NCBI GenBank assembly: GCA_016190985.1
Contig: JACPPI010000006.1
Span: 1 to 64,000, forward strand
DNA from: Opitutia bacterium
GTDB lineage: Bacteria; Verrucomicrobiota; Verrucomicrobiia; Opitutales; Opitutaceae
Direction: 5' to 3'
DNA length: 64,000 nt
The notes beneath the pieces were generated by a model. It did not search any database and had not been told where the DNA came from. It saw only the letters and a program-made list of their open reading frames with translations. Below, piece by piece: positions 5,604 through 21,687 of this stretch (positions are counted from its first letter, which is position 1; every line of letters begins with the position of its first letter). A program made the translations under genes and the position numbers.

Positions 5604-8092
5604 TGAGTGAACGCTGGCAGGTCTACAAATTCGGCGGCACCTCCGTCGGCACCGTGGGGCGTCTGCCCCAGGTGCTGGAGCTGGTGGCGGCCGCACCGCG
5701 CCCGCTCGCGCTGGTTGTTTCCGCCCCCGGTGACAGCACCGACTGGTTGATCCTGGCCGCCAAGTCCGCCGCCGCCGGCAACATCAGCCAGGCCCGCCGC
5801 GAGCTGGCCCAGGTGCGCGAGCTCGCCACCGCCATCGGCCGCACCGTGCTCAACAGCCAGGGGCAGAAGGGCCTCAGGCACGACCTCGACGACATCCTCA
5901 CCCCGGCGGAACGCCTGCTCTCCGGCATCGAGCTGACCCGCGAGTGCTCGCCGCGCACGCTCGACTCCGTCATCAGCGTCGGCGAGCGCCTCTCCGTGGC
6001 GCTGGTCGCCCGCGCCCTCGCGCAACGCGATGTGCCCGCCATTCCCGTCGACGCCCGGGACTTTGTCGTGACCGACGCGACCTTCGGCGCCGCCACGGTG
6101 GACAAGGCCGAGACCAAGAAAAACTTTGCCGAGGCCGCCAAGAAGTGGACCGGCCACGTGCCCGTTGTCACCGGCTTCATCGGCCGCACGCCGGACGGCC
6201 AGACCACCACGCTCGGCCGCAACGGCTCCGATTACACCGCCACGCTCGTGGCCGGCCTGCTCAAGGCCAGCGCCGTCACCGTCTGGACCGACGTGCTCGG
6301 CGTGATGACCGCCGACCCGGCGCTGGTGCGCGAGGCCACGCCCGTGGACCGGCTCTCCTACGACGAGGCGCTGGAGCTGGCGTATTTCGGCACGCGGATG
6401 TTCCACCCGCGCACCATCATCCCGCTGCGGGAGTGCGGCGCGGCGCTCGTCATCCGCAGCACCACGCAGCCCGACGCCCCCGGCACGCGCATCGACGCGA
6501 CCGGCAATCCCGACCCGAACCGCCCGACCTGTGTGACCAGCCTCGAGCGGCTCGCGCTCATCGGCGTGCAATCCCGCCGCACCGGCCTGGGCCGGCCGCT
6601 CGGCGGCCGCATCCTCGCCGCGCTCAACGAGGCCGGCGTGCGCGTGTGGCTGACCACCGAGTCCACGCTCGGCCAGTCGTTCTCGGTCGTCGTGCCCGGC
6701 CCCGACGAGACCCGGGCCAAGGCCAGCATCGCCGAGGCGCTCGCGCCCGAGTTGGCGCAGGGCGACCTGCGCATCGAGCCCGTGCTCTCGCCGGTTTCGC
6801 TGGTCACGCTCGTGGGCGAGAACATGGCCGGCCGGCCGAATGTCGCCGGCCAGTTCCTCAACTCGATCGGCTCGGCCGGCATCGCCGTGCGCGCCGTGGC
6901 GCAGGGCGCGTCGGCCCGCAGCATCTCCTGCGTGGTCGACGCCGACCAGACCGCCACCGCGGTGCAGACCGTGCACGGCGCGTTCAACCTCGCGCACACC
7001 CAGCTGAGCGTGCTGCTGATCGGCAAGGGCGTCGTGGGCGGCAGCCTGCTCCGGCAGATCGAGCGGCAGAACCAGACGCTCGGCCGCGAGCACGACGTGC
7101 AGGTGCGGCTCGTGGGGCTCGCCTCGAGCCGGGGCGCGTTGTTCGAGGCGGAAGGCCTGCCACCGCTCGAGGCGGGCGCCCGGTTGGACAAGGCGCTGGC
7201 GGCGGGCAAGGCCGCCAAGGATGCCGGCTCCCTGTTGAAGAAACTTTCGCAGCTGCCCAACCCCGTGCTGGTGGACTGCTCGGCCGCGGCCGGCATGGAG
7301 AAGATCTACCGCGCCGCGTTTGCCCACGGCATCAACGTGGTCTCGGCCAACAAGCAGCCGCTCGCGCTGCCGACGGCCGAGCGCACCGCGCTGCTGGGCG
7401 AGGCCCGCAAGCATTTCCGCGCGTATCATTACGAGACGACGGTCGGCGCGGCGCTGCCCGTCATCGAGACCCTCAAAAATCTCGTCCGCACCGGCGACCA
7501 CGTCATCACCATCGAGGGCGCGTTCTCCGGCACGCTCGGATTTCTCTGCGAGCGCCTGGTCCACGGCGACGCGCTGTCGGCCGCCGTGCGCCAGGCCAAG
7601 GAGCTTGGCTACACCGAGCCGCACCCGCGCGACGACCTGTCGGGCCTCGATGTGGCGCGCAAGGCTGTCATCCTCGCCCGCGAACTGGGCCTGCAGTTGG
7701 AGCTGGGCGACGTGGCGCTCGAGCCGTTCGTGCCGGCGGAGAACCTGCGCGAGGACGATCCGGAAAAATTCCTGCAAGCGCTCACCAAGCTCGACGCAGC
7801 GGTCGCGGCGCGCGTCACCGCAAGCAAGGCCCACGGCAAGCTGCCGCGCTACTTGGCCCGCATCACGCCCGGCGCGTCCGGGGCCAAGGTCACGGTCGGT
7901 CCCGTCGAGGTGGACGTGGCGCATCCCGCGTCGTCACTGCGCGGCTCCGAGGCCTTCGTGGCGTTTCATACCGAGCGCTATCGCGAATATCCGCTGGTGG
8001 TGCGCGGGTCGGGTGCGGGCGGGGAAGTGACCGCCGCCGGTGTGCTCGCGGATGTTTTGCGCCTCGCCCAGAACCTGCGCGGCCGGCGGTGA
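5603..8092 (+). CDS. thrA: Bifunctional aspartokinase / homoserine dehydrogenase
   Basis: 829 aa starting at the ATG that overlaps the metX stop. The order is aspartokinase (KFGGTSVG at 9-16, RNGSDYTATL near 212), ACT regulatory region at about 310-460, then homoserine dehydrogenase (nucleotide-binding LIGKGVVGGSLL near 474, SANKQPLALP near 580, catalytic ARELGL segment near 690). It catalyses the first and third steps from aspartate to homoserine, feeding MetX and threonine. ThrA-type fusions are usually feedback-inhibited by threonine through the ACT domains, which is inferred here. A longer in-frame start at 5546 would lie inside metX and is not needed. Confidence 0.96.
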   Translation: MSERWQVYKFGGTSVGTVGRLPQVLELVAAAPRPLALVVSAPGDSTDWLILAAKSAAAGNISQARRELAQVRELATAIGRTVLNSQGQKGLRHDLDDILTPAERLLSGIELTRECSPRTLDSVISVGERLSVALVARALAQRDVPAIPVDARDFVVTDATFGAATVDKAETKKNFAEAAKKWTGHVPVVTGFIGRTPDGQTTTLGRNGSDYTATLVAGLLKASAVTVWTDVLGVMTADPALVREATPVDRLSYDEALELAYFGTRMFHPRTIIPLRECGAALVIRSTTQPDAPGTRIDATGNPDPNRPTCVTSLERLALIGVQSRRTGLGRPLGGRILAALNEAGVRVWLTTESTLGQSFSVVVPGPDETRAKASIAEALAPELAQGDLRIEPVLSPVSLVTLVGENMAGRPNVAGQFLNSIGSAGIAVRAVAQGASARSISCVVDADQTATAVQTVHGAFNLAHTQLSVLLIGKGVVGGSLLRQIERQNQTLGREHDVQVRLVGLASSRGALFEAEGLPPLEAGARLDKALAAGKAAKDAGSLLKKLSQLPNPVLVDCSAAAGMEKIYRAAFAHGINVVSANKQPLALPTAERTALLGEARKHFRAYHYETTVGAALPVIETLKNLVRTGDHVITIEGAFSGTLGFLCERLVHGDALSAAVRQAKELGYTEPHPRDDLSGLDVARKAVILARELGLQLELGDVALEPFVPAENLREDDPEKFLQALTKLDAAVAARVTASKAHGKLPRYLARITPGASGAKVTVGPVEVDVAHPASSLRGSEAFVAFHTERYREYPLVVRGSGAGGEVTAAGVLADVLRLAQNLRGRR

Positions 8093-8142: not shown

Positions 8143-8175
8143 GATAATTTGTAATATAATAGATTACAAATTATC
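8143..8175. repeat. Perfect AT-rich palindrome with 13-bp arms
   Basis: GATAATTTGTAAT and ATTACAAATTATC are exact reverse complements around the loop ATAATAG. Read on the minus strand, the inner 25 bp match the palindrome at 55795-55819 at 23 positions. It could be an operator, a mobile-element remnant or a transcript end for thrA, although no T-run follows. Confidence 0.7.
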
Positions 8176-8235: not shown

Positions 8236-8300
8236 GTTGTCATAAATCATAAAACTTAAGTTGACAGCGATTCGGCCGATTAGCAGCTTCTGCGCCTCCG
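8236..8300 (+). promoter_or_regulatory. AT-rich candidate promoter of the ilv-leu cluster
   Basis: An AT-rich island (CATAAATCATAAAACTTAAG) is followed by TTGACA at 8261-8266, a perfect -35 match, just before the leader peptide. No good -10 lies 16-18 bp further on, so the exact promoter is uncertain. The placement is what attenuation control would require. Confidence 0.35.
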
Positions 8301-8301
8301 C

Positions 8302-8406
8302 ATGATCCTCAACGCCGCCCTTATTGCGCTTATTACCGTCGTCCTGGCCCTGCTGGCCACGGACCCGAACACACATGGGCGGCTCGCAACAGCCACAAGC
8401 TCCTAA
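8302..8406 (+). CDS. ilv-type leader peptide (attenuator leader)
   Basis: A 34-codon ORF from ATG 8302 to TAA 8404-8406. It opens MILNAALIALITVVLALL, so about 11 of the first 18 residues are Ile, Leu or Val. A second block is mostly Thr, Ala and Ser. An intrinsic terminator begins 24 bases after its stop, and ilvD begins about 145 bases after it. This is the architecture of E. coli ilvL and leuL: ribosomes stalling at Ile/Leu/Val codons would favour an antiterminator. I recognise it by composition and position, not by homology. No Shine-Dalgarno is visible before the ATG. Confidence 0.7.
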   Translation: MILNAALIALITVVLALLATDPNTHGRLATATSS

Positions 8407-8430
8407 GAGGACAAAAACTCAAAACCGGAA

Positions 8431-8456
8431 GCCGCCCACCCCAGGGCGGCTTTTTT
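8431..8456 (+). terminator. Intrinsic terminator / attenuator before ilvD
   Basis: GCCGCCC at 8431-8437 pairs with GGGCGGC at 8444-8450 around a 6-base loop, followed directly by TTTTTTATTT. It lies just after the leader peptide and before ilvD, as expected for an attenuator controlling the whole ilv-leu cluster. Confidence 0.85.
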
Positions 8457-8550
8457 ATTTCCCACGCCGAAAGCGTATGACGCAGACCTCAACCACCGAT
8501 GCCTCGCCCTGCCTAAAATGTCCCGGCAGCGTGGCCTGATCCTTGCCCCC

Positions 8551-10221
<1,671 letters not shown>

Positions 10222-10254
10222 ACCATCACTCCCACGGACAATTCCAGGAACACC

Positions 10255-12117
10255 ATGAAACTCACCGGCGCAGAAATCATTTGGGAGTGCTTACAGAAGG
10301 AAGGCGTGGACGTAGTCTTCGGTTACCCGGGCGGCGCGATCCTGCCCACCTACGACGCGATGACCAAGTATCCGCAGATCCACCATGTGCTCGTGCGCCA
10401 CGAACAGGGCGCCACCCACATGGCCGACGGTTACGCCCGCGCCAGCGGCCGGGTCGGCGTCGCCATCGCCACCTCCGGCCCCGGCGCGACCAACATGGTC
10501 ACCGGCATCGCCACCGCCATGATGGATTCGTCGCCCATCGTCTGCATCACCGGTCAGGTCGGCTCCAAGGCGATCGGCACCGACGCCTTCCAGGAGACGG
10601 ATGTGACCGGCGTCACGCTGCCGATCACGAAGCACAATTACCTCGTCACCAAACCCGGCGACATCGCGCGCGCCATCCGCGAGGCGTTCTACATCGCGAA
10701 GAGCGGCCGCCCGGGCCCTGTGCTGGTCGACATCACGAAGGACGCGCAGCAGCTCACCGCCGAGTTTGACTGGGAGGCCGCCGCGCCCCGCCTGCCCGGC
10801 TACCGACCGAGCCACCACGCCCCGGCGTCGGAGTTCGCCCGCGCCGCCGAACTGATCAACTTCGCCCAGCGCCCGCTGATCCTCGCCGGGCAGGGCATCA
10901 TCAAGTCCGGCACGACCGACGCGGTGCTCCAGCTCGCCAAGACCGCCGGCATCCCGATCACGACGACGCTCCTCGGCATCGGCGCCATCCCGGCGTCGTC
11001 GGAGTTCAACCTCGGCATGATGGGCATGCACGGCGAGGCCTGGGTCAACCAGGCCATCCAGCAGGCCGACCTGCTCATCGCGCTCGGCATGCGTTTTGAC
11101 GACCGTGTGACCGGCAACCTCAAGACCTACGCCCTCAACGCGAAGAAGATCCACGTCGACATCGACCCGACCGAGATCAACAAGAACGTGCCGGTCGACG
11201 TGGCCCTCATCGGCGATCTCCGCGAGGTGCTGACCGTCATCCAGCCGCTGGTGAGGAAGGCCGCCCACGCCGGGTGGTGGAAGACCATCCAGGGCTTCCG
11301 CGGCGATTCCGCCGTGCGCGACATCCAGAGCCTGCCCGACAGCGGCCATCTCTACGCCGCGCATGTGATCAACGACATCTGGCGCCTCACGCAGAAGCGT
11401 GACACGATTGTCGTGACCGACGTCGGCCAGCACCAGATGTGGGAGGCGCAGTATTTCCGCCACGACAAGCCCCGCTCGCTCATCACCTCGGGCGGCCTCG
11501 GCACAATGGGCTTCGCGCTGCCCGCCGCCATCGGCGCCAAATTCGCCTGCCCGGACAAAGACGTGTGGGTGATCGTCGGCGACGGCGGCTTCCAGATGAC
11601 CTCGTGCGAGCTGGCCACGGCCGAGCAGGAGGGCATCAAGGTCAACGTCGCCATCATCAACAACGCCTTCCTCGGCATGGTGCGCCAGTGGCAGGAGTTC
11701 TTCTACGACAAGCGCTATGCCGCCACGCCGATGACCGGCCCGGATTTCGTGAAGCTCGCCGAGGCCTACCGCCTCACCGGCCTGCGCTGCAACCAGCGCG
11801 CCGGGGTCAAGGCCACGGTCGAGAAGACCCTCGCGGACAAGAAGACCGTCGTCATCGACTTTGTCGTCGAGAAGGAGGACACCGTGTTCCCGATGGTCCC
11901 GGCCGGCGCCGATCTCGACAAGATGATCCGCCGCCCGAAGCAGGACGTGATGCTGGAGTCCGGCTCCGACAAGGACTGGGAGATGCCCGCCGTGACGGTG
12001 GCGGTCGCGCGCAACGGGCACACCAAGGCCTCACCCAGGAAAACCCAAACCGCGAAGGCTTCGCCGAAGCCGAACCGCGCCGTAGCTCCGAAAGGAGCGA
12101 AGGCGGGCCGCCGCTAA
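10255..12117 (+). CDS. ilvB: Acetolactate synthase large subunit
   Basis: 620 aa thiamine-diphosphate enzyme that makes acetolactate or acetohydroxybutyrate from pyruvate. The catalytic Glu is E50 in HEQGATHMADGYAR. The C-terminal ThDP motif starts GDGGFQMTSCELATAEQ and ends about 28 residues later at INN. AGGA lies 6 bases before the ATG. The last ~40 residues form a basic, Ala/Lys/Pro-rich tail not expected in the family. Its DNA contains hairpin units (GTAGCTCCGAAAGGAGC near 12080), suggesting a repeat was captured at the 3' end. The small subunit follows 12 bp downstream. Confidence 0.96.
   Translation: MKLTGAEIIWECLQKEGVDVVFGYPGGAILPTYDAMTKYPQIHHVLVRHEQGATHMADGYARASGRVGVAIATSGPGATNMVTGIATAMMDSSPIVCITGQVGSKAIGTDAFQETDVTGVTLPITKHNYLVTKPGDIARAIREAFYIAKSGRPGPVLVDITKDAQQLTAEFDWEAAAPRLPGYRPSHHAPASEFARAAELINFAQRPLILAGQGIIKSGTTDAVLQLAKTAGIPITTTLLGIGAIPASSEFNLGMMGMHGEAWVNQAIQQADLLIALGMRFDDRVTGNLKTYALNAKKIHVDIDPTEINKNVPVDVALIGDLREVLTVIQPLVRKAAHAGWWKTIQGFRGDSAVRDIQSLPDSGHLYAAHVINDIWRLTQKRDTIVVTDVGQHQMWEAQYFRHDKPRSLITSGGLGTMGFALPAAIGAKFACPDKDVWVIVGDGGFQMTSCELATAEQEGIKVNVAIINNAFLGMVRQWQEFFYDKRYAATPMTGPDFVKLAEAYRLTGLRCNQRAGVKATVEKTLADKKTVVIDFVVEKEDTVFPMVPAGADLDKMIRRPKQDVMLESGSDKDWEMPAVTVAVARNGHTKASPRKTQTAKASPKPNRAVAPKGAKAGRR
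12040..12114. repeat. Palindromic repeat forming the 3' end of ilvB
   Basis: GCGAAGGCTTCGCC is followed by GCCGTAGCTCCGAAAGGAGC and GAAGGCGGGC, nested hairpins typical of dispersed spacer repeats. They lie in frame within the non-conserved IlvB tail. Confidence 0.45.
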
Positions 12118-12129
12118 CCCACCGCTCCC

Positions 12130-12693
12130 ATGGCCAAACATACGCTTATCGCCTACGTCGAGGACGTCCCCGGCGTCCTGAACCGGGTCGCGTCGCTCTT
12201 CCGCCGCCGCAACTTCAACATCGAGTCCCTCACGGTCGGCCGCACCGAGCAGCCGGGCGTGTCGCGCCTCACCGTCGTCGTCGACGCCACCGAGGCCGGC
12301 GCCCGCATCGTCGAGGCCAACCTCTACAAGCTCGTCAACGTCCTCCGCGTCGACGACCTCACCCACAAGCCCTCGCTCTACCGCGAGCTCGGCCTCGTGA
12401 AGGTCCGGGTCACGGCCCGGACCCGGTCCGAGGTGCTGCAGCTGACGGACGTGTTTCGCGCCCGCGTCGTCGACGTGGACGAGGCGACGCTCGTCATCGA
12501 GGTCACCGGCACTCCGGAGAAGATCGGCAAGTTCGAAATGGTGCTTCGCCCCTACGGCATCGTGGAGATCGTGCGCACCGGCGCCGTCGCCATGGCGCGC
12601 GGCCACGAGCCCCTCTCGGCCGCCCCGCCGCTGGTCCCCACCGCCAAGGAAGAGCAGCACCCCGACGCCGCCAGTCTTTCCATGTCCGTCTGA
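12130..12693 (+). CDS. ilvN: Acetolactate synthase regulatory (small) subunit
   Basis: 187 aa. The N-terminal ACT domain (about 3-75) includes YVEDVPGVLNRVASLFRRRN and NIESLTVGRTE, the standard small-subunit signature that binds valine for feedback control. The C-terminal ALS_ss_C-type domain follows. Length is slightly above the ~160-170 aa common for IlvH, with a low-complexity tail. It is adjacent to ilvB and surely forms the holoenzyme with it. A 42-bp AT-rich spacer (CTTAAAAC-like repeats) separates it from ilvC. Confidence 0.95.
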   Translation: MAKHTLIAYVEDVPGVLNRVASLFRRRNFNIESLTVGRTEQPGVSRLTVVVDATEAGARIVEANLYKLVNVLRVDDLTHKPSLYRELGLVKVRVTARTRSEVLQLTDVFRARVVDVDEATLVIEVTGTPEKIGKFEMVLRPYGIVEIVRTGAVAMARGHEPLSAAPPLVPTAKEEQHPDAASLSMSV

Positions 12694-12735
12694 TCCTTAA
12701 AACTTATCACTTAAACCTTAAAACTATTACTCCCC

Positions 12736-13746
12736 ATGGCTAAAATCTACTACGACAAGGACGCGAATCCCGCACTCATCCGCGGCAAGAAAGTCGCCAT
12801 CATCGGCTACGGCTCCCAAGGCCACGCCCACGCGCTCAACCTGAAGGAAAGCGGCGTCAGGGTGCGCGTCGGCCTCGCGCCGACGAGCAAGTCCGCCGCC
12901 AAGGCCAGGAAGGCCGGCCTGACCGTCGCCACCGTCGCCGCCGCCTCGGCCTGGGCCGACGTCATCATGGTGCTCGTGCCGGACCACGTGCAGGCCCGCC
13001 TTTACCGGGAGGAGATCGCGCCGCACCTCACCGCCGGCAAGATGCTGATGTTCGCCCACGGTTTCAACATCCGCTTCAAGGGCATCGTGCCGCCGAAGAA
13101 TGTCGACGTGGCGATGATCGCGCCGAAGTCCCCGGGCCATCGCGTGCGCGAGGTCTTCCAGGAGGGCGGCGGCGTCCCCGGCCTCATCGCCGTGCACCAG
13201 AACGCCACCGGCTCGGCCAAGAAGCTCGCCCTGTCCTACGGCCGCGGCATCGGCTGCACCCGCGCCGGTGTGCTCGAGACCACGTTCACGGAGGAGACCG
13301 AGACCGATCTCTTCGGCGAGCAGGCCGTGCTGTGCGGCGGCTGCGCCGAGCTGGTCAAGGCCGGGTTCAAGACCCTCGTCGACGCGGGCTACCAGCCCGA
13401 GATCGCCTACTTCGAGTGCCTGCACGAGCTGAAGCTCATCGTGGACCTCATGTATCGCGGCGGCCTCAACTACATGCGCTATTCCGTCTCCGACACCGCC
13501 GAGTGGGGCGACTACGTCTCCGGTCCGCGCGTCATCACCAAGAAGACGCAGGCCGAGATGAAACGCATCCTCAAGGACATCCAGTCCGGCAGGTTCGCCC
13601 GGCGCTTCATCGACGAGAACAACAAGCATGGCCGCAAGACCATGACCAAATTCCGCAACCGCGAGCGCGGCCAGCAGATCGAGGTCGTCGGCGCCAGGCT
13701 GCGCGCGATGATGCCGTTCCTCAACCCCGTCGTCATTTCGAAGTGA
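12736..13746 (+). CDS. ilvC: Ketol-acid reductoisomerase (class I)
   Basis: 336 aa, the length of the short class I enzyme. The Rossmann motif [14 protein letters not shown] lies near 24. The metal site [12 protein letters not shown], the segment [18 protein letters not shown] and the C-terminal [10 protein letters not shown] are all conserved. It converts acetolactate or acetohydroxybutyrate to the dihydroxy acids with NADPH, between IlvBN and IlvD. Confidence 0.97.
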
Positions 13747-13833: not shown

Positions 13834-15435
13834 ATGTCCTCCTCATACGTCCGCATCTTCGACACCAGCCTCCGCGACGGCGAGCAGGCGCCGGGCGCGT
13901 CCATGACCTCGGCCGAAAAGCTCGAGGTGGCGCGCTCCCTCGCGCGGCTGGGCGTCGACGTCATCGAGGCCGGCTTCCCGGCCGCCTCGCCCGACGATCT
14001 CGCCGCCGTGCAGTCGATCGCCGCCGAGGTCGGGCGCGTGCCCGTCGAAGGTCGCTTGCAAAGCGATCCGCCGATCATCTGCGGCCTGGCCCGCTGCACC
14101 CGCAGCGACATCGACGCGGCGTGGCAGGGCGTCAGGGGCGCCAAGCACCCGCGCATCCACACCTTCCTCGCGACCAGCGACCTGCACCTCAAGCACAAGC
14201 TCCGCATGTCGCGCGAGGAGATGACCGCCAAAGCCGTCGAGATGGTCGCCTACGCGCGCACGCTGTGCAAGGACGTTGAGTTCTCCCCCGAGGACGCCGG
14301 CCGCAGCGACCCGGAGTTCCTCCACCAGGTGCTCGCGGCCGTCATCAAGGCCGGCGCCACCACGCTCAACATCCCGGACACCGTCGGCTACACCATGCCC
14401 GACGAATTCGGGGCGCTGATCGCGGGCATCATCAGGCACACACCCGGCGCGAAGGACGTGATCATCTCGGTGCATTGCCACGACGACCTCGGGCTCGCCG
14501 TCGCCAACTCGCTCGCGGGCCTCCGTGCGGGTGCACGCCAGGCGGAGGTGACGGTCAATGGCATCGGCGAACGCGCCGGCAACGCCTCGCTCGAGGAGGT
14601 CGTCATGGCCATCCGCACCCGCGGGGCCAAGATCGGCCTCCAGACCGGCGTCGACACCACGCAGCTCTGCCGCATCAGCAAGCTCGTTTCCCGCAGCACC
14701 GGCTATCCCGTGCCGCCCAACAAGGCCGTCGTCGGCGCCAACGCCTTCGCCCACGAGTCAGGCATCCACCAGGACGGCATGATCAAGAACGCCCTGACCT
14801 ACGAGATCATGCGGCCGCAGGATGTCGGCGCGACCCACACCACGCTCGTGCTCGGCAAGCACTCGGGCCGCGCGGCCTTTTCCAAGCGCCTCACCGAGCT
14901 GGGCTACCCGCTCGAGGGCGACGCCCTGCTCAAGGCCTTCAACGAATTCAAGAAACTCGCCGACCGCAAAAAATCCGTGCTCGACGCCGACCTGATCGCG
15001 CTGGCCTCCGACGAGCGCGCCACCGTGCCCGAGTTGTGGGCGTTGGAGCACCTCCAGGTCATGTGCGGCACCGCCGGCCTGCCGACCGCCAGCGTCCGCC
15101 TCCGCGACCCCGATGGCAAGATCCGCAGCCACGCCGCCATCGGCACGGGTCCGGTGGACGCCACCTACAAGGCGATCAACGCCATCGTCGATCTGCCGGT
15201 GGAGCTGCTCGAGTTCGGCATCAACGCCGTGACGGAGGGCGTCGACGCCCTGGCCGAGGCCACGGTCCGCGTGCGCCACGAGGAGCAGCGCTCCGCGCAC
15301 GGCCACGGCGCCGACACCGACATCGTCGTGGCCGCCGCCAAGGCCTACATCGCCTCGCTCAACCATGTGCTCTCGCGCCAGTCCACCGGCCGCGCCCAGC
15401 ACCCGCAGAGCGTCCCGACCGAGGTTTCCCGATGA
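13834..15435 (+). CDS. leuA: 2-isopropylmalate synthase
   Basis: 533 aa. The TIM-barrel catalytic domain has [15 protein letters not shown] near residue 10, the metal-binding HCHDDLG and [14 protein letters not shown]. The C-terminal LeuA dimerisation/allosteric domain (about 380-505) includes [16 protein letters not shown]. It condenses 2-oxoisovalerate with acetyl-CoA, the first step of leucine synthesis, and is normally leucine-inhibited through the C-terminal domain. Length and domain order are those of the usual LeuA. The paralogous cimA lies 2 kb downstream in the same cluster. Confidence 0.95.
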
Positions 15436-15532: not shown

Positions 15533-16942
15533 ATGAGTTCGTCGCCAAAGACCCTTTTCCAGAAAATCTGGGATTCGCACGTCGTCGCCGAGGAGCCCGG
15601 TGCGCCCACCGTGCTCTACATCGACCTGCACCTCGTCCACGAGGTCACGTCGCCACAGGCCTTCTCCGTGCTCAAGGAGCGCGGGCTGAAGGTCCGCCGC
15701 CCCGGGCGCACGGTCGCGACCATGGACCATTCCATCCCGACCAAGGGCGGCTACGAGGCCGCCGACGAGCCGGGCCGCATCCAGTTGCGCCTGCTCGAGT
15801 CCAACGCCCAGGCCAACGGCGTCCGCATCTACGGCCTCGATTCCGTGCAGCGTGGCATCGTGCATGTCATCGGGCCGGAGCAGGGCTTCACCCAGCCGGG
15901 CATGACGATCGTGTGCGGCGACAGCCACACCTCCACCCACGGCGCGTTCGGCTCGCTCGGCTTCGGCATCGGCACGAGCGAGGTCGGCCACGTGCTGGCC
16001 ACGCAGTGCCTCCTGCAGCGCAAACCGAAGACCTGCGAGGTCCGCATCGACGGCGCCCTGCGCCCGGGCGTGACGGCCAAGGACATCATCCTCGCCGTGC
16101 TCGCCCAGATCGGCGTCGGCGGCGGCACCGGCCATGTGTTCGAATACACCGGCGCCGCCATCCGCGCACTCGACATGGAGGGCCGCATGACGGTCTGCAA
16201 CATGTCGATCGAGGGCGGCGCGCGCGCCGGCATGGTCGCGCCCGACGACAAGACCTTCAATTTCGTGAACGGCCGCGAGTTCGCCCCCCAGGGCGCCGCG
16301 TGGGACAAGGCCGTCGCGCACTGGCGCACGCTGCCGACCGACGCCGGCGCGACCTTTGACAAGACGGTCACGCTCGACGCCAGCACGCTGGAGCCGATGG
16401 TCACCTTCGGCACCAATCCCGGCCAGGGCGTCGCCATCACGCAGCCGCTGCCGCAGCCGTCGAGCCTCGCCGACGCCAACGAGCGCGCGGGCCTGGAAAA
16501 ATCGCTCGCCTACATGAAATTCGAGGCCGGCAAGCCGATCCTCGGCCAGCCGGTGGACGTCGTCTTCCTCGGCTCCTGCACCAACTCGCGCATTGGCGAT
16601 CTGCGCGCCGCCGCCGGCCTGCTCAAGGGCCGGAAGGTGGCGAAGAACGTCCGCATGATGGTCGTGCCGGGCTCGCAGTCCGTGAAACTGGCCGCCGAGG
16701 CCGAGGGCCTGGACAAGATCTTCAAGGCGGCCGACGCCGACTGGCGCGAGGCCGGCTGCTCGATGTGCATCGCCATGAACGGCGACCAGCTGTCACCCGG
16801 CCAGCTCGCCGTCTCCACCTCCAACCGCAACTTCGAGGGCCGGCAGGGCAAGGGCGGGCGCACTGTCCTCGCTTCGCCGCTCACCGCGGTGGCGTCGGCT
16901 GTCGCCGGTCGCATCGCCGATCCGCGGCCGCTGATGAGTTGA
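15533..16942 (+). CDS. leuC: 3-isopropylmalate dehydratase large subunit
   Basis: 469 aa from ATG 15533. The open frame upstream only covers the repeat in the spacer. Aconitase-fold enzyme with 4Fe-4S ligands in GSCTNSR and [10 protein letters not shown]. The segments [20 protein letters not shown] and [12 protein letters not shown] are diagnostic. With LeuD it isomerises 2-isopropylmalate to 3-isopropylmalate. In clusters with CimA the same LeuCD pair also processes citramalate. Confidence 0.96.
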
Positions 16943-16949
16943 TCCAACC

Positions 16950-17000
16950 TGTAGGGTCGGCGCTCGCGCCGACCAGGTGGCCGCAAGCGGCCACCCTGCA
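16950..17000. repeat. REP-like pair (TGTAGGGT family) between leuC and leuD
   Basis: TGTAGGGTCGGCGCTCGCGC runs into CGACC, and an inverted partner reads TGCAGGGTGGCCGCTTGCGG from the other strand. Each half is a hairpin. A related single unit occurs at 56750-56775. Confidence 0.65.
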
Positions 17001-17012
17001 AAATACCACACC

Positions 17013-17598
17013 ATGTCCGCTCCCAAATTCTCCACCCTGACTTCCCGTTGCGTCGTGCTGCCCGTGCAGGACGTCGACACCGACCAGATCATCCCCGCCC
17101 GTTTCCTCAAGGTCACGGACAAGCTGGGCCTGGGCGAAAAGCTGTTCTGCGACTGGCGTTATCTGGATGACGGCTCGCCCAACCCGAAATTCGTTCTGAA
17201 CCAGCCCGAGGCCCGGGGGGCGCAGGTGCTCGTCGCCGGCCACAACTTCGGCTGCGGCTCCTCGCGCGAGCACGCGCCGTGGGCCCTCGTCGGCTTCGGC
17301 TTCCAGGCGGTCATCTCCACGATGTTCGCCGACATCTTCAAGGGCAACGCGGTCAAGAACGGCCTGATCCCGGTCGTCATCGAGCCCGCGGCCCACGCCG
17401 CACTGGTCGCCCAGCGGGCCGGGCAACCGGACCTGGAAATCACGATCGACCTGAAGTCGCAGACGGTCAGCTGGCTCGGCCAGATGCCGCTGATGTTCCC
17501 GATCGACCCGTTCTCGCGCACCTGCCTGCTCGAGGGTGTGGACGAGCTGGGCTACCTGCAGAAATTCCAGAAACAGGCGGAAGCCCACGAGGCCGCGC

Positions 17599-17606
<8 letters not shown>
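17013..17606 (+). CDS. leuD: 3-isopropylmalate dehydratase small subunit
   Basis: 197 aa from ATG 17013. The swivelling domain of the isopropylmalate isomerase has QDVDTDQIIPARFLK near 17 and FGCGSSREHAPWAL near 75, both hallmark motifs. It partners LeuC, 70 bp upstream across a REP pair. Its 3' end overlaps the cimA start by 8 nt, so translation is probably coupled. Confidence 0.96.
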
Positions 17607-19251
<1,645 letters not shown>

Positions 19252-19275: not shown

Positions 19276-20343
19276 ATGAAAGCAAGCATCGCACTCACTC
19301 CCGGTGACGGCATCGGCCCCGAGGTGGTCCAGGAGGCCCGCCTCGTGCTGGAGGCCGTCGCCCAACGGCACGGGCACGAATTCAAATTTTCCGAACACCT
19401 GCTCGGTGGCTGTGCCATCGACGCCCGGGGCACGGCCTTGCCGGACGAGACCCTCGCCGCCGCCCGGGCCGCCGATGCCGTTCTGTTGGGCGCCGTGGGC
19501 GGCCCGAAGTGGGATGACCCCCAGGCCAAGGTGCGCCCGGAGCAGGGCCTGCTCGCCATCCGCCAGGCCCTCGGCCTCTACGCCAACGTGCGCCCCGTGC
19601 GGCCGCATCCCGCGCTGGCCAGACTGTCACCGCTCAAGCCCGAGCGCGTGGCCGGCGTGGACTTTGTCGTCATCCGCGAACTGACCGGCGGCCTCTACTT
19701 CGGCACGCCCAAGGGCCGCACCATGACCCCGGAGGGCGAACGCGCCGTGGACACGCTCGTTTATACGGAAGGCGAGATCCGCCGGATCGTGAAGCTCGCC
19801 TTCCAGATGGCGCAGCAGCGCCGCCAGCTGGTCACGTCCGTCGACAAGGCCAACGTGCTCGAGTCGTCCCGCCTCTGGCGCAAGGTCGCCATCGAGATCG
19901 GCAAGCTGTTCCCCGACGTGAAGCTGGAGCACCAGCTCGTCGATTCCTGCGCCATGCGCCTGATCACCCACGCGGCGCACTTCGACGTCATCGTCACCGA
20001 AAACATGTTCGGCGACATCCTGACCGACGAGGCGGCGGTGCTGGCCGGCTCGCTGGGCGTGCTGCCCAGCGCGTCGCTGGGCGGGAGCAGGCTGGGCCTC
20101 TACGAGCCGATCCACGGCTCGGCTCCCGACATCGCGGGCCGGGGCAGCGCCAACCCCGTCGGCACGATCCTGTCGGCCGCAATGCTATTGCGGCACTCGC
20201 TCGGCCTCGAAAAGGAAGCCCGCGAGATCGAGGGCGCCGTCAACCTCGCGCTCGAGGAGGGCAAGCACACCGCCGACCTCGACGCCAAGAATCCCCTGTC
20301 CACCGCCCAGATGGGCGAGGCTGTCCGCGAACGCCTCGCGTAA
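19276..20343 (+). CDS. leuB: 3-isopropylmalate dehydrogenase
   Basis: 355 aa. LTPGDGIGPEVV at the N-terminus, RELTGGLYFG near 134, the metal/substrate site NMFGDILTDEAAVLAGSLG, and GSAPDIAGRGSANPVGTILSA near 277 are classic LeuB. It oxidises and decarboxylates 3-isopropylmalate to 2-oxoisocaproate, and here probably also methylmalate from the citramalate route. It starts 24 bp after cimA. Confidence 0.97.
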   Translation: MKASIALTPGDGIGPEVVQEARLVLEAVAQRHGHEFKFSEHLLGGCAIDARGTALPDETLAAARAADAVLLGAVGGPKWDDPQAKVRPEQGLLAIRQALGLYANVRPVRPHPALARLSPLKPERVAGVDFVVIRELTGGLYFGTPKGRTMTPEGERAVDTLVYTEGEIRRIVKLAFQMAQQRRQLVTSVDKANVLESSRLWRKVAIEIGKLFPDVKLEHQLVDSCAMRLITHAAHFDVIVTENMFGDILTDEAAVLAGSLGVLPSASLGGSRLGLYEPIHGSAPDIAGRGSANPVGTILSAAMLLRHSLGLEKEAREIEGAVNLALEEGKHTADLDAKNPLSTAQMGEAVRERLA

Positions 20344-20481: not shown

Positions 20482-21687
20482 ATGAATCCATCATCCGAGC
20501 CGCCGCTCGCCACGACCCGCTTCATCGCGCGGCATGTGGCGGGCCTCCGCCGCTCCGGCATCCGCGATTTCTTCGAGCTGGTCGCCAAGACTGACGGCGT
20601 CATCTCCCTTGGCATCGGCGAACCGGATTTCGACACACCGCAACCGATCCGCGACGCCGTGAAGGCGGCGATGGACATGGGCAAAACCCACTACACCTCC
20701 AACCTCGGCCTGCCCGAGTTGCGCAAGGAGATCTGCCGCTACGTGGAAGGCCATTTCAAGGTCGGCTACCGGCCGGATGACGAGGTGCTCGTGACCGTGG
20801 GTGTGTCCGAGGGGCTGGACCTGGCGCTGCGCTCGCTGCTCAACCCGGGCGACAAGGTGATGTTTCACCAACCCTGCTATGTTTCCTACGCCCCGTCGGT
20901 GGATCTGGTCCACGCGGTCGGCGTGCCGGTGGCAACCCATGCCGGCGACCAGTTCTCGCTCGACGCGCCCGCGTTGGCGGCGGCCTGGCAGCCCGGCTGC
21001 AAGCTGCTCCTGTTGAACCTGCCCTGCAACCCGACCGGCGGGGTGTGCTCGCGCGACCAGCTGGGACGCATCGCAAAGTTCGCCATCGAGAAGGACCTGA
21101 TCGTCGTCAGCGACGAGATCTACTCGGAGCTGGTCTTCGAAGGCGCGCATACGAGCATCGCGAGCCTGCCCGGCATGCGGGAGCGGACGATCCTGCTGCA
21201 CGGTTTCTCGAAGGCGTTTGCGATGACCGGCTTCCGGCTCGGCTACGCCTGCGGCCCGGCGCCGCTGATCGAGGCGATGATGAAGGTGCACCAATACACG
21301 ATGCTCTGCGCCCCGAGCATCAGCCAGGAAGGCGCGCTCGCCGCGCTGCGCCTCGGCGACGACGCCACGAAGTTCATGCGCGACCGCTACCGCGAGCGCC
21401 GCGACCTCTTTGTCCGCCGGATCAACGCCGCCGGATTGCAGTGCCACTCGCCGCGCGGCTCCTTCTACGCGTTTCCCTCGGTGGCGGGCACGGGGCTCGA
21501 CGAGGGCGAGTTCGCCCGGCGCCTGTTGCTGGAGCACAGGGTGGCGGTCGTGCCCGGCACGGCCTTCGGCGACGCCGGCCAGGGCCATGTGCGCGCCTGC
21601 TTCACGGCCAGCGAGGAGAAGCTGATGGCCGCCTGCGACCGGATCGAGCGGTTGCTGAATTCAATCAAGCCGGCAGTGCAGGCCTGA
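20482..21687 (+). CDS. Class I/II PLP aminotransferase
   Basis: 401 aa fold-type I aminotransferase. ISLGIGEPDFDTP at 41-53 is the N-terminal substrate segment. NLPCNPTGG and DEIYSEL bind PLP, and the Schiff-base Lys is K244 in SKAFAMTGFRLGYA. The family includes aspartate, aromatic and alanine/branched-chain aminotransferases. Its place at the end of the ilv-leu cluster suggests it transaminates branched-chain keto acids, but that is inference, as no fold-type IV ilvE is in the window. Confidence 0.88.
   Translation: MNPSSEPPLATTRFIARHVAGLRRSGIRDFFELVAKTDGVISLGIGEPDFDTPQPIRDAVKAAMDMGKTHYTSNLGLPELRKEICRYVEGHFKVGYRPDDEVLVTVGVSEGLDLALRSLLNPGDKVMFHQPCYVSYAPSVDLVHAVGVPVATHAGDQFSLDAPALAAAWQPGCKLLLLNLPCNPTGGVCSRDQLGRIAKFAIEKDLIVVSDEIYSELVFEGAHTSIASLPGMRERTILLHGFSKAFAMTGFRLGYACGPAPLIEAMMKVHQYTMLCAPSISQEGALAALRLGDDATKFMRDRYRERRDLFVRRINAAGLQCHSPRGSFYAFPSVAGTGLDEGEFARRLLLEHRVAVVPGTAFGDAGQGHVRACFTASEEKLMAACDRIERLLNSIKPAVQA

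Follow-up and report, generated by a model that had tools for sequence, protein, structure and literature searches.

The locus in front of ilvD in this Opitutaceae genome raises the question of what decides whether transcription enters the isoleucine, leucine and valine genes that follow. In the window, meaning the whole analysed stretch of 64,000 nucleotides, a sequence-only reading had described an Ile/Leu/Val-rich open reading frame (ORF) of 34 codons, then a GC hairpin with a T6 tract and then ilvD, and both the coordinates and the description proved correct. The leader is best explained, with high probability, as a ribosome-mediated transcription attenuator, by which the bacterium very probably raises its branched-chain amino acid genes when Ile, Leu or Val is short; both the termination and the amino acid response at the leader are what we infer from its sequence. 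This leader represents a well-conserved candidate attenuator, placed in Opitutaceae ahead of a branched-chain pathway that is nearly complete, and similar layouts occur in Holophagae and some Anaerolineae.

The genes concerned form a cluster of ten co-directional ilv, leu and cimA genes on the + strand, which begins with ilvD and ends at 21687. Successively these are: ilvD (dihydroxy-acid dehydratase, 8551-10221, above the TIGR00110 cut-off), ilvB (acetolactate synthase large subunit, 10255-12117, TIGR00118), ilvN (acetolactate synthase small subunit, 12130-12693, TIGR00119), ilvC (ketol-acid reductoisomerase, 12736-13746, TIGR00465), leuA (2-isopropylmalate synthase, 13834-15435, TIGR00973), leuC (15536-16942, TIGR00170), leuD (17010-17606, TIGR00171), cimA (citramalate synthase, 17599-19251, TIGR00977, 678.9 bits against a cut-off of 450), leuB (19276-20343, TIGR00169) and a pyridoxal-phosphate aminotransferase gene of no named family (20482-21687). 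The start codons of ilvD, leuC, leuD and cimA were chosen in the analysis. A curated NCBIfam cut-off is passed by nine of the ten genes, the exception being the aminotransferase, which reached none among the best 25 of its 69 matches, those listed being below cut-off. The intergenic distances range from -8 to 138 nt, and all ten genes are presumably co-transcribed; one promoter-like match (12718-12746) overlaps the start of ilvC, one being found and 1.2 expected. The products of the cluster make Ile, Leu and Val, the same three amino acids that are encoded by the leader codons.

Upstream of the cluster lies an aspartokinase-homoserine dehydrogenase gene of the same direction, ending at 8092. 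In three loci of the same genus (L219, L220 and L221) the order is aspartokinase gene, ilvD, ilvB, ilvN, ilvC, leuA, cimA, leuB and aminotransferase. The genes leuC and leuD, located in the window between leuA and cimA (15536-17606), were not found in the corresponding stretches of these three loci, nor in that of the sister genus (L222), and thus seem to have been added in the window's cluster. An AT-rich palindrome of 33 bp (GATAATTTGTAAT..ATTACAAATTATC, 8143-8175) lies amid the GC-rich region behind the aspartokinase gene. It occurs at four places in its own genome, with flanks that are unlike by eye, and was seen in none of the other loci fetched by the time of the scan outside the same place; it is perhaps a small repeat element.

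The leader ORF (8302-8406, + strand, translation MILNAALIALITVVLALLATDPNTHGRLATATSS*) has no Shine-Dalgarno sequence and ranks first in Ile/Leu/Val density of 518 ORFs, these being all ATG-started frames with a length of 15-60 codons that the two strands of the whole window contain. Its putative control codons are codons 7-18 (8320-8355), CTT ATT GCG CTT ATT ACC GTC GTC CTG GCC CTG CTG, whose Ile/Leu/Val class is kept between loci. The leader is 32-34 codons long in 25/25 loci of the group, a set from which eight duplicates of others are excluded. Among these loci ATT accounts for 60 of the 71 leader Ile codons, compared with 3.2% of Ile codons in the ten window genes and 124/793 in ilvD across these 25 loci; in three of them (L010, L012 and L013) ATT is not rare, because ilvD itself writes about half of its Ile in this way. 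Upstream of the antiterminator arm described below, the share of GC-ending codons is 0.82 for the other leader codons versus 0.11 for Ile. Rare Ile codons fit a stalling sensor; alternatively, ATT may keep the RNA unfolded.

The conservation of this arrangement was assessed by a layout scan with three elements: (i) an ORF dense in Ile, Leu and Val; (ii) no more than 60 nt further on, a GC hairpin with a minimum of 7 pairs, followed by a T-rich tail; (iii) a position within 300 nt upstream of ilvD. Loci with less than 150 nt upstream and near-duplicates were excluded, misses were kept in the counts, and the locus sets were taken from searches as the best 30 matches at most per search. The layout is present in 20/20 loci of clade A, to which the window belongs, in 5/5 of clade B and in 2/2 of the sister genus. 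Attenuation, as stated beforehand, would have been refuted if the small ORF or the hairpin were not conserved; both are kept in 27/27 loci of two Opitutaceae groups, which, together with an antiterminator present as sequence, supports the original reading of ribosome stalling. Shuffled copies of these 27 loci never gave the layout (0/540; 0/400, 0/100 and 0/40 for the three sets), and shuffles of all scanned loci gave it in 2/3020 cases, both among the other named loci. At the ilvD of other Opitutales, which is 46-49% identical, the layout was found in 0/10 loci.

The putative intrinsic terminator (8427-8456, + strand), identified by hairpin scan and folding, consists of a stem 8427-8437/8444-8454, with the letters GGAAGCCGCCC-ACCCCA-GGGCGGCTTTT over 8427-8454, and of a T6 tract at 8451-8456. 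With 11 pairs, 7 of them G-C, it is the best of four terminator-like matches on the + strand between 1000 and 20999; the remaining three have 5 pairs each, two lying within the upstream gene and one (18123-18135) within the cluster. Its predicted folding energy is -20.1 kcal/mol (z -4.15), and the leader as a whole (8296-8458) folds with z -3.54. In the group alignment 98.4% of cells are paired, and one pair shows A-U to G-C changes.

A hairpin of this kind might be a mere terminator of the aspartokinase-homoserine dehydrogenase gene, next to which the short ORF would be incidental. That gene does run in the same direction, and terminator-like hairpins as such are about as frequent as in shuffles, 13 being found on both strands against 10.6 expected, so that a hairpin alone is not rare. 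Yet the hairpin is placed 335 nt past the gene end, behind a TTGAC box conserved in 25/25 loci and behind the leader ORF, which itself contains the competing arm and keeps its length and content between loci; a terminator serving only the upstream gene is consequently very unlikely.

The competing arm is what turns the terminator into a candidate attenuator. The 5' arm of the predicted antiterminator (TGGGCGGCT, 8376-8384) lies within the leader ORF at codons 25-28 and is complementary at 9/9 positions to the 3' arm (AGCCGCCCA, 8430-8438), which overlaps the 5' arm of the terminator. The antiterminator 5' arm repeats the terminator 3' arm, hence the two structures exclude each other. Folded alone, the region 8376-8442 gives -22.1 kcal/mol, and 7 of 300 shuffles formed a duplex as low as that of the window. 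The motif GGGCGGC of the 5' arm is present in 25/25 group loci.

Covariation of an antiterminator in relatives had been proposed as a check on attenuation, and its outcome is divided: the arm is indeed present and the differing arms of other lineages still pair, though not all significantly, but no covariation was found in the group, where 7 of the 9 pairs never vary and none is changed on both sides. Covariation is uninformative here because the arms are nearly invariant. In seven loci of other lineages an arm of different sequence still pairs with the terminator of its locus, and 0-9 of 300 shuffles gave a duplex as low: L112, of the same family and located before ilvB; L079 and L154, of the same order as L064; L183 and L192, of the Geothrix class; L208 and L209, from the search of that class. 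The duplex was not significant in L064, L187, L197, L200, L201, L202 and L203, and all these results come from 22 hand-picked cases, which are not an unbiased sample. The combined arm-and-terminator pattern occurs once in the window's own genome, at the ilvD leader; a reversed control pattern also gave one match, so this count says little.

Two further pairings were identified upstream of the arm. A hairpin of the pause type within the control codons (8341-8349 with 8355-8364, + strand) shows 95.0% of cells paired and three double-sided pair changes, a covariation reached by 1 of 500 shuffles. A protector (1:2) helix (8336-8340 with 8378-8382, + strand), predicted by RNAalifold, is paired in 98.9% of cells, without double changes, and would hold the antiterminator arm. 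As predicted from the sequence, these two elements complete the 1:2/2:3/3:4 plan of an attenuator. Two other candidates were rejected. A small protector hairpin (8381-8384/8392-8395) pairs in 20/20 clade A loci, is missing in clade B and receives no weight in the fold model; a 1:2 pair between 8314-8320 and 8377-8383 is strong in the window, but by eye several relatives have it weakened or interrupted.

Leaders of the T-box and riboswitch type are also known to place competing hairpins in front of amino acid genes, as described in an excerpt of PMC2965389, and the choice of hairpin might accordingly be made by a T-box, a riboswitch or an RNA-binding protein, and not by the ribosome. To this we assign very little probability: no Rfam 15 family matched the leader at its gathering score, there being weak matches only, at E up to 10, of which the best has 20.4 bits against 55, and the switch region is nearly all coding, with conserved Ile/Leu/Val codons. 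Least probable of all is a functional small hydrophobic membrane protein next to a separate terminator, for the Ile/Leu/Val/Ala run could, judging by its composition, span a membrane and substitutions are somewhat more frequent in third codon positions (27/21/33), but the most fixed part of the ORF is GGG CGG CTC, the antiterminator arm, identical at the DNA level in 20/20 clade A loci, clades A and B share only the Ile/Leu/Val character and the arm, and Ile is written with the rare ATT.

Under ribosome-mediated attenuation, the RNA would start near 8296 and a ribosome would load on the leader ORF without a Shine-Dalgarno sequence. Under a shortage of charged Ile, Leu or Val tRNA, this ribosome would stall at codons 7-18 and open the protector, leaving 8376-8384 free to pair with 8430-8438; the antiterminator would then form and the polymerase would continue into ilvD and the rest of the cluster. 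With sufficient amino acids, the ribosome would run over the arm (codons 23-33) or the protector would re-form; with the arm blocked, the terminator would fold and transcription would stop at about 8456.

The proposed sequence of events was compared with an equilibrium model in which the ribosome masks the 15 nt before and the 16 nt after the P site and the RNA ends at 8440. For the window, the antiterminator has a probability of 0.63-1.00 when the A site is placed at codons 7-20, falling to 0.00 at those codons tested from 23 to 33. A ribosome on the stop codon leaves the arm free, and the antiterminator reaches 0.99. Classical leaders terminate when untranslated; in the model without a ribosome, the upstream pairing occupies the arm (1.00) at RNA end 8425 and the antiterminator has 0.87 at 8440. 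Once the RNA end reaches 8458 the terminator wins in every modelled state (0.93-1.00), so that the antiterminator would have to act kinetically.

The stop codon is where the two clades part. The ribosome at the stop codon leaves the arm unmasked in 20/20 clade A loci, the window included, and masks it in 5/5 clade B loci; the distance from arm to stop is 20 nt in all 20 of the former and 11-14 nt in all five of the latter. According to the mask model, the geometry of clade B is the textbook one, from which clade A departs. Since the arm is unmasked at the stop in clade A, termination under rich conditions must there rest on a moving ribosome, on a protector that opens slowly or on crowding by a ribosome within the antiterminator loop, and any choice among these three routes would be inferential. 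By placing the stop codon differently, clades A and B offer a natural experiment that bears on whether the terminating ribosome plays a part.

The start of the leader is a second peculiarity. The probable -35 element of its promoter is TTGACA (8261-8266, + strand), whose TTGAC is present in 25/25 loci and whose role is deduced from the sequence, and a possible -10 element is CAGCTT (8284-8289, + strand) at a spacing of 17 nt, CA-nnT-like in most clade A loci and a weak match to the consensus. The RNA would accordingly start about 3-14 nt before the leader ATG across loci, and about 5 nt before it in the window. In all 25 leaders the 20 nt preceding the ATG are free of AGGA, GGAG and GAGG. Such a Shine-Dalgarno motif is also missing from 7 of 8 other gene starts checked in the window, so initiation without it may be usual there. 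The ilvBNC leader peptide of Corynebacterium glutamicum is reportedly formed without a ribosome binding site, going by the title of a study by Morbach from 2000. Upstream of the TTGAC box, TGTCATAA is found at 8238-8265; GTCATAA occurs no more than 40 nt upstream of TTGAC in 14/25 loci, the spaced motif is found once in the genome, and 8238-8265 is a possible candidate operator.

Between the terminator and ilvD a second short ORF of 20 residues (8477-8539, + strand) has been identified, and an ORF is found at this place in 27/27 loci. Its end lies 10-13 nt ahead of ilvD in 18/20 clade A loci, the exceptions being L004, where it overlaps the ilvD start, and L019, where it ends 32 nt before; in clade B it overlaps the ilvD start in 3/5 loci, which are those with the ilvD start located. 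This is possibly a reinitiation ORF. Its coding signal is weak (distinct bases minus one of 23/24/32 for the three codon positions in 14 loci), and the ORF is therefore a lead only. Excerpts of PMC4833913 describe short ORFs with a peak 10-11 bp before genes, connected with reinitiation from leader to structural gene; the second ORF resembles this peak in its distance to the gene but would sit behind a transcription attenuator. Within it there is a candidate hairpin (CTGCCG..CGGCAG) that by eye seems to covary in L010, L012 and L013.

The proposed mechanism is classical, and its variant features are the initiation and the stop-codon geometry. The ilv and leu leaders of Escherichia coli contain multi-amino-acid or Leu control codons, a terminator and an antiterminator; the window has the same parts in different sequences. 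A leader-peptide attenuator before ilvD has been described for the ilvDBNCleuABCDilvA operon of Staphylococcus aureus (PMC5794164). According to excerpts of that source, the likeness covers a leader peptide rich in branched-chain amino acids and a terminator before the ilvD of an ilv-leu operon, with stalling proposed to favour the antiterminator. The S. aureus peptide, however, is leucine-rich, its predicted antiterminator pairs with the poly-U tail and leaves the terminator stem intact, and CodY adds control, whereas in the window, which belongs to another phylum, the antiterminator arm takes the 5' arm of the terminator. The ilvBNC attenuator of C. glutamicum likewise comprises terminator, antiterminator and anti-antiterminator hairpins, as excerpts of PMC11857589 state, but it precedes ilvB, has other sequences and was tested by mutation, while that of the window is predicted from sequence. 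A search of the open-access literature, which lacks most subscription journals, returned no description of an attenuator of such kind in Verrucomicrobiota or Opitutaceae, Chloroflexi or Acidobacteria, publications on ilvD and those phyla being judged by title.

Of 288 genomes sampled from the phylum, eight have an ilvD match with an E value of 1e-180 or better: the window's genus accounts for four (its own genome included), the sister genus for two, and the remaining two are distant (53% identity); the layout is found in 0/2 of the distant loci. The layout also precedes ilvD in 6/9 named Holophagae, 12/19 loci of the Geothrix class search and 3/3 of an Anaerolineae subset, in 2/55 other named loci and in 0/26 loci from the order of L064 with another ilvD type. 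The ilvD and ilvB of the group (8551-12117 in the window) are about 63-70% identical to those of Holophagae and the Anaerolineae subset. The ilvB matches of other Opitutales are 40-46% identical, except for G029 with 75%; ilvB was found in 25/27 genomes by a relaxed search and in 1/27 by a stricter one. In an ilvD tree of 160 rows, some of which are the same gene repeated and whose +ATT labels were assigned per group and not per locus, the Opitutaceae group and the Holophagae clade are sisters (local support 0.82), and the other Opitutales lie far from this group. That ilvD and ilvB are closer to those of Holophagae and certain Anaerolineae than to those of most other Opitutales suggests, from sequence comparison, a horizontal transfer. 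The leaders of the Opitutaceae, Holophagae, Geothrix class and Anaerolineae groups look unlike each other, hence the switch may either have travelled with the genes or have arisen again.

A tentative joint reading, to which we give a rather low probability, would combine these observations in a two-stage leader. In it, a stalling ORF that is nearly leaderless and lacks a Shine-Dalgarno sequence sets termination, in the window's clade by the 1:2 protector or a moving ribosome and not by a ribosome parked at the stop, and the second short ORF delivers reinitiating ribosomes to ilvD, also without a Shine-Dalgarno sequence; the regulated module may have passed from one phylum to another.

Comparable leaders were also observed before ilvB. 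Four loci of other Opitutales (L142, L148, L150 and L151) have a leader ORF with a valine run and a strong terminator before another ilvB, and 0-4 of 300 shuffles were as low as their antiterminator duplexes. In another genus of the window's family (L112), an Ile/Leu/Val leader and a terminator precede an ilvB that is 75% identical to that of the window.
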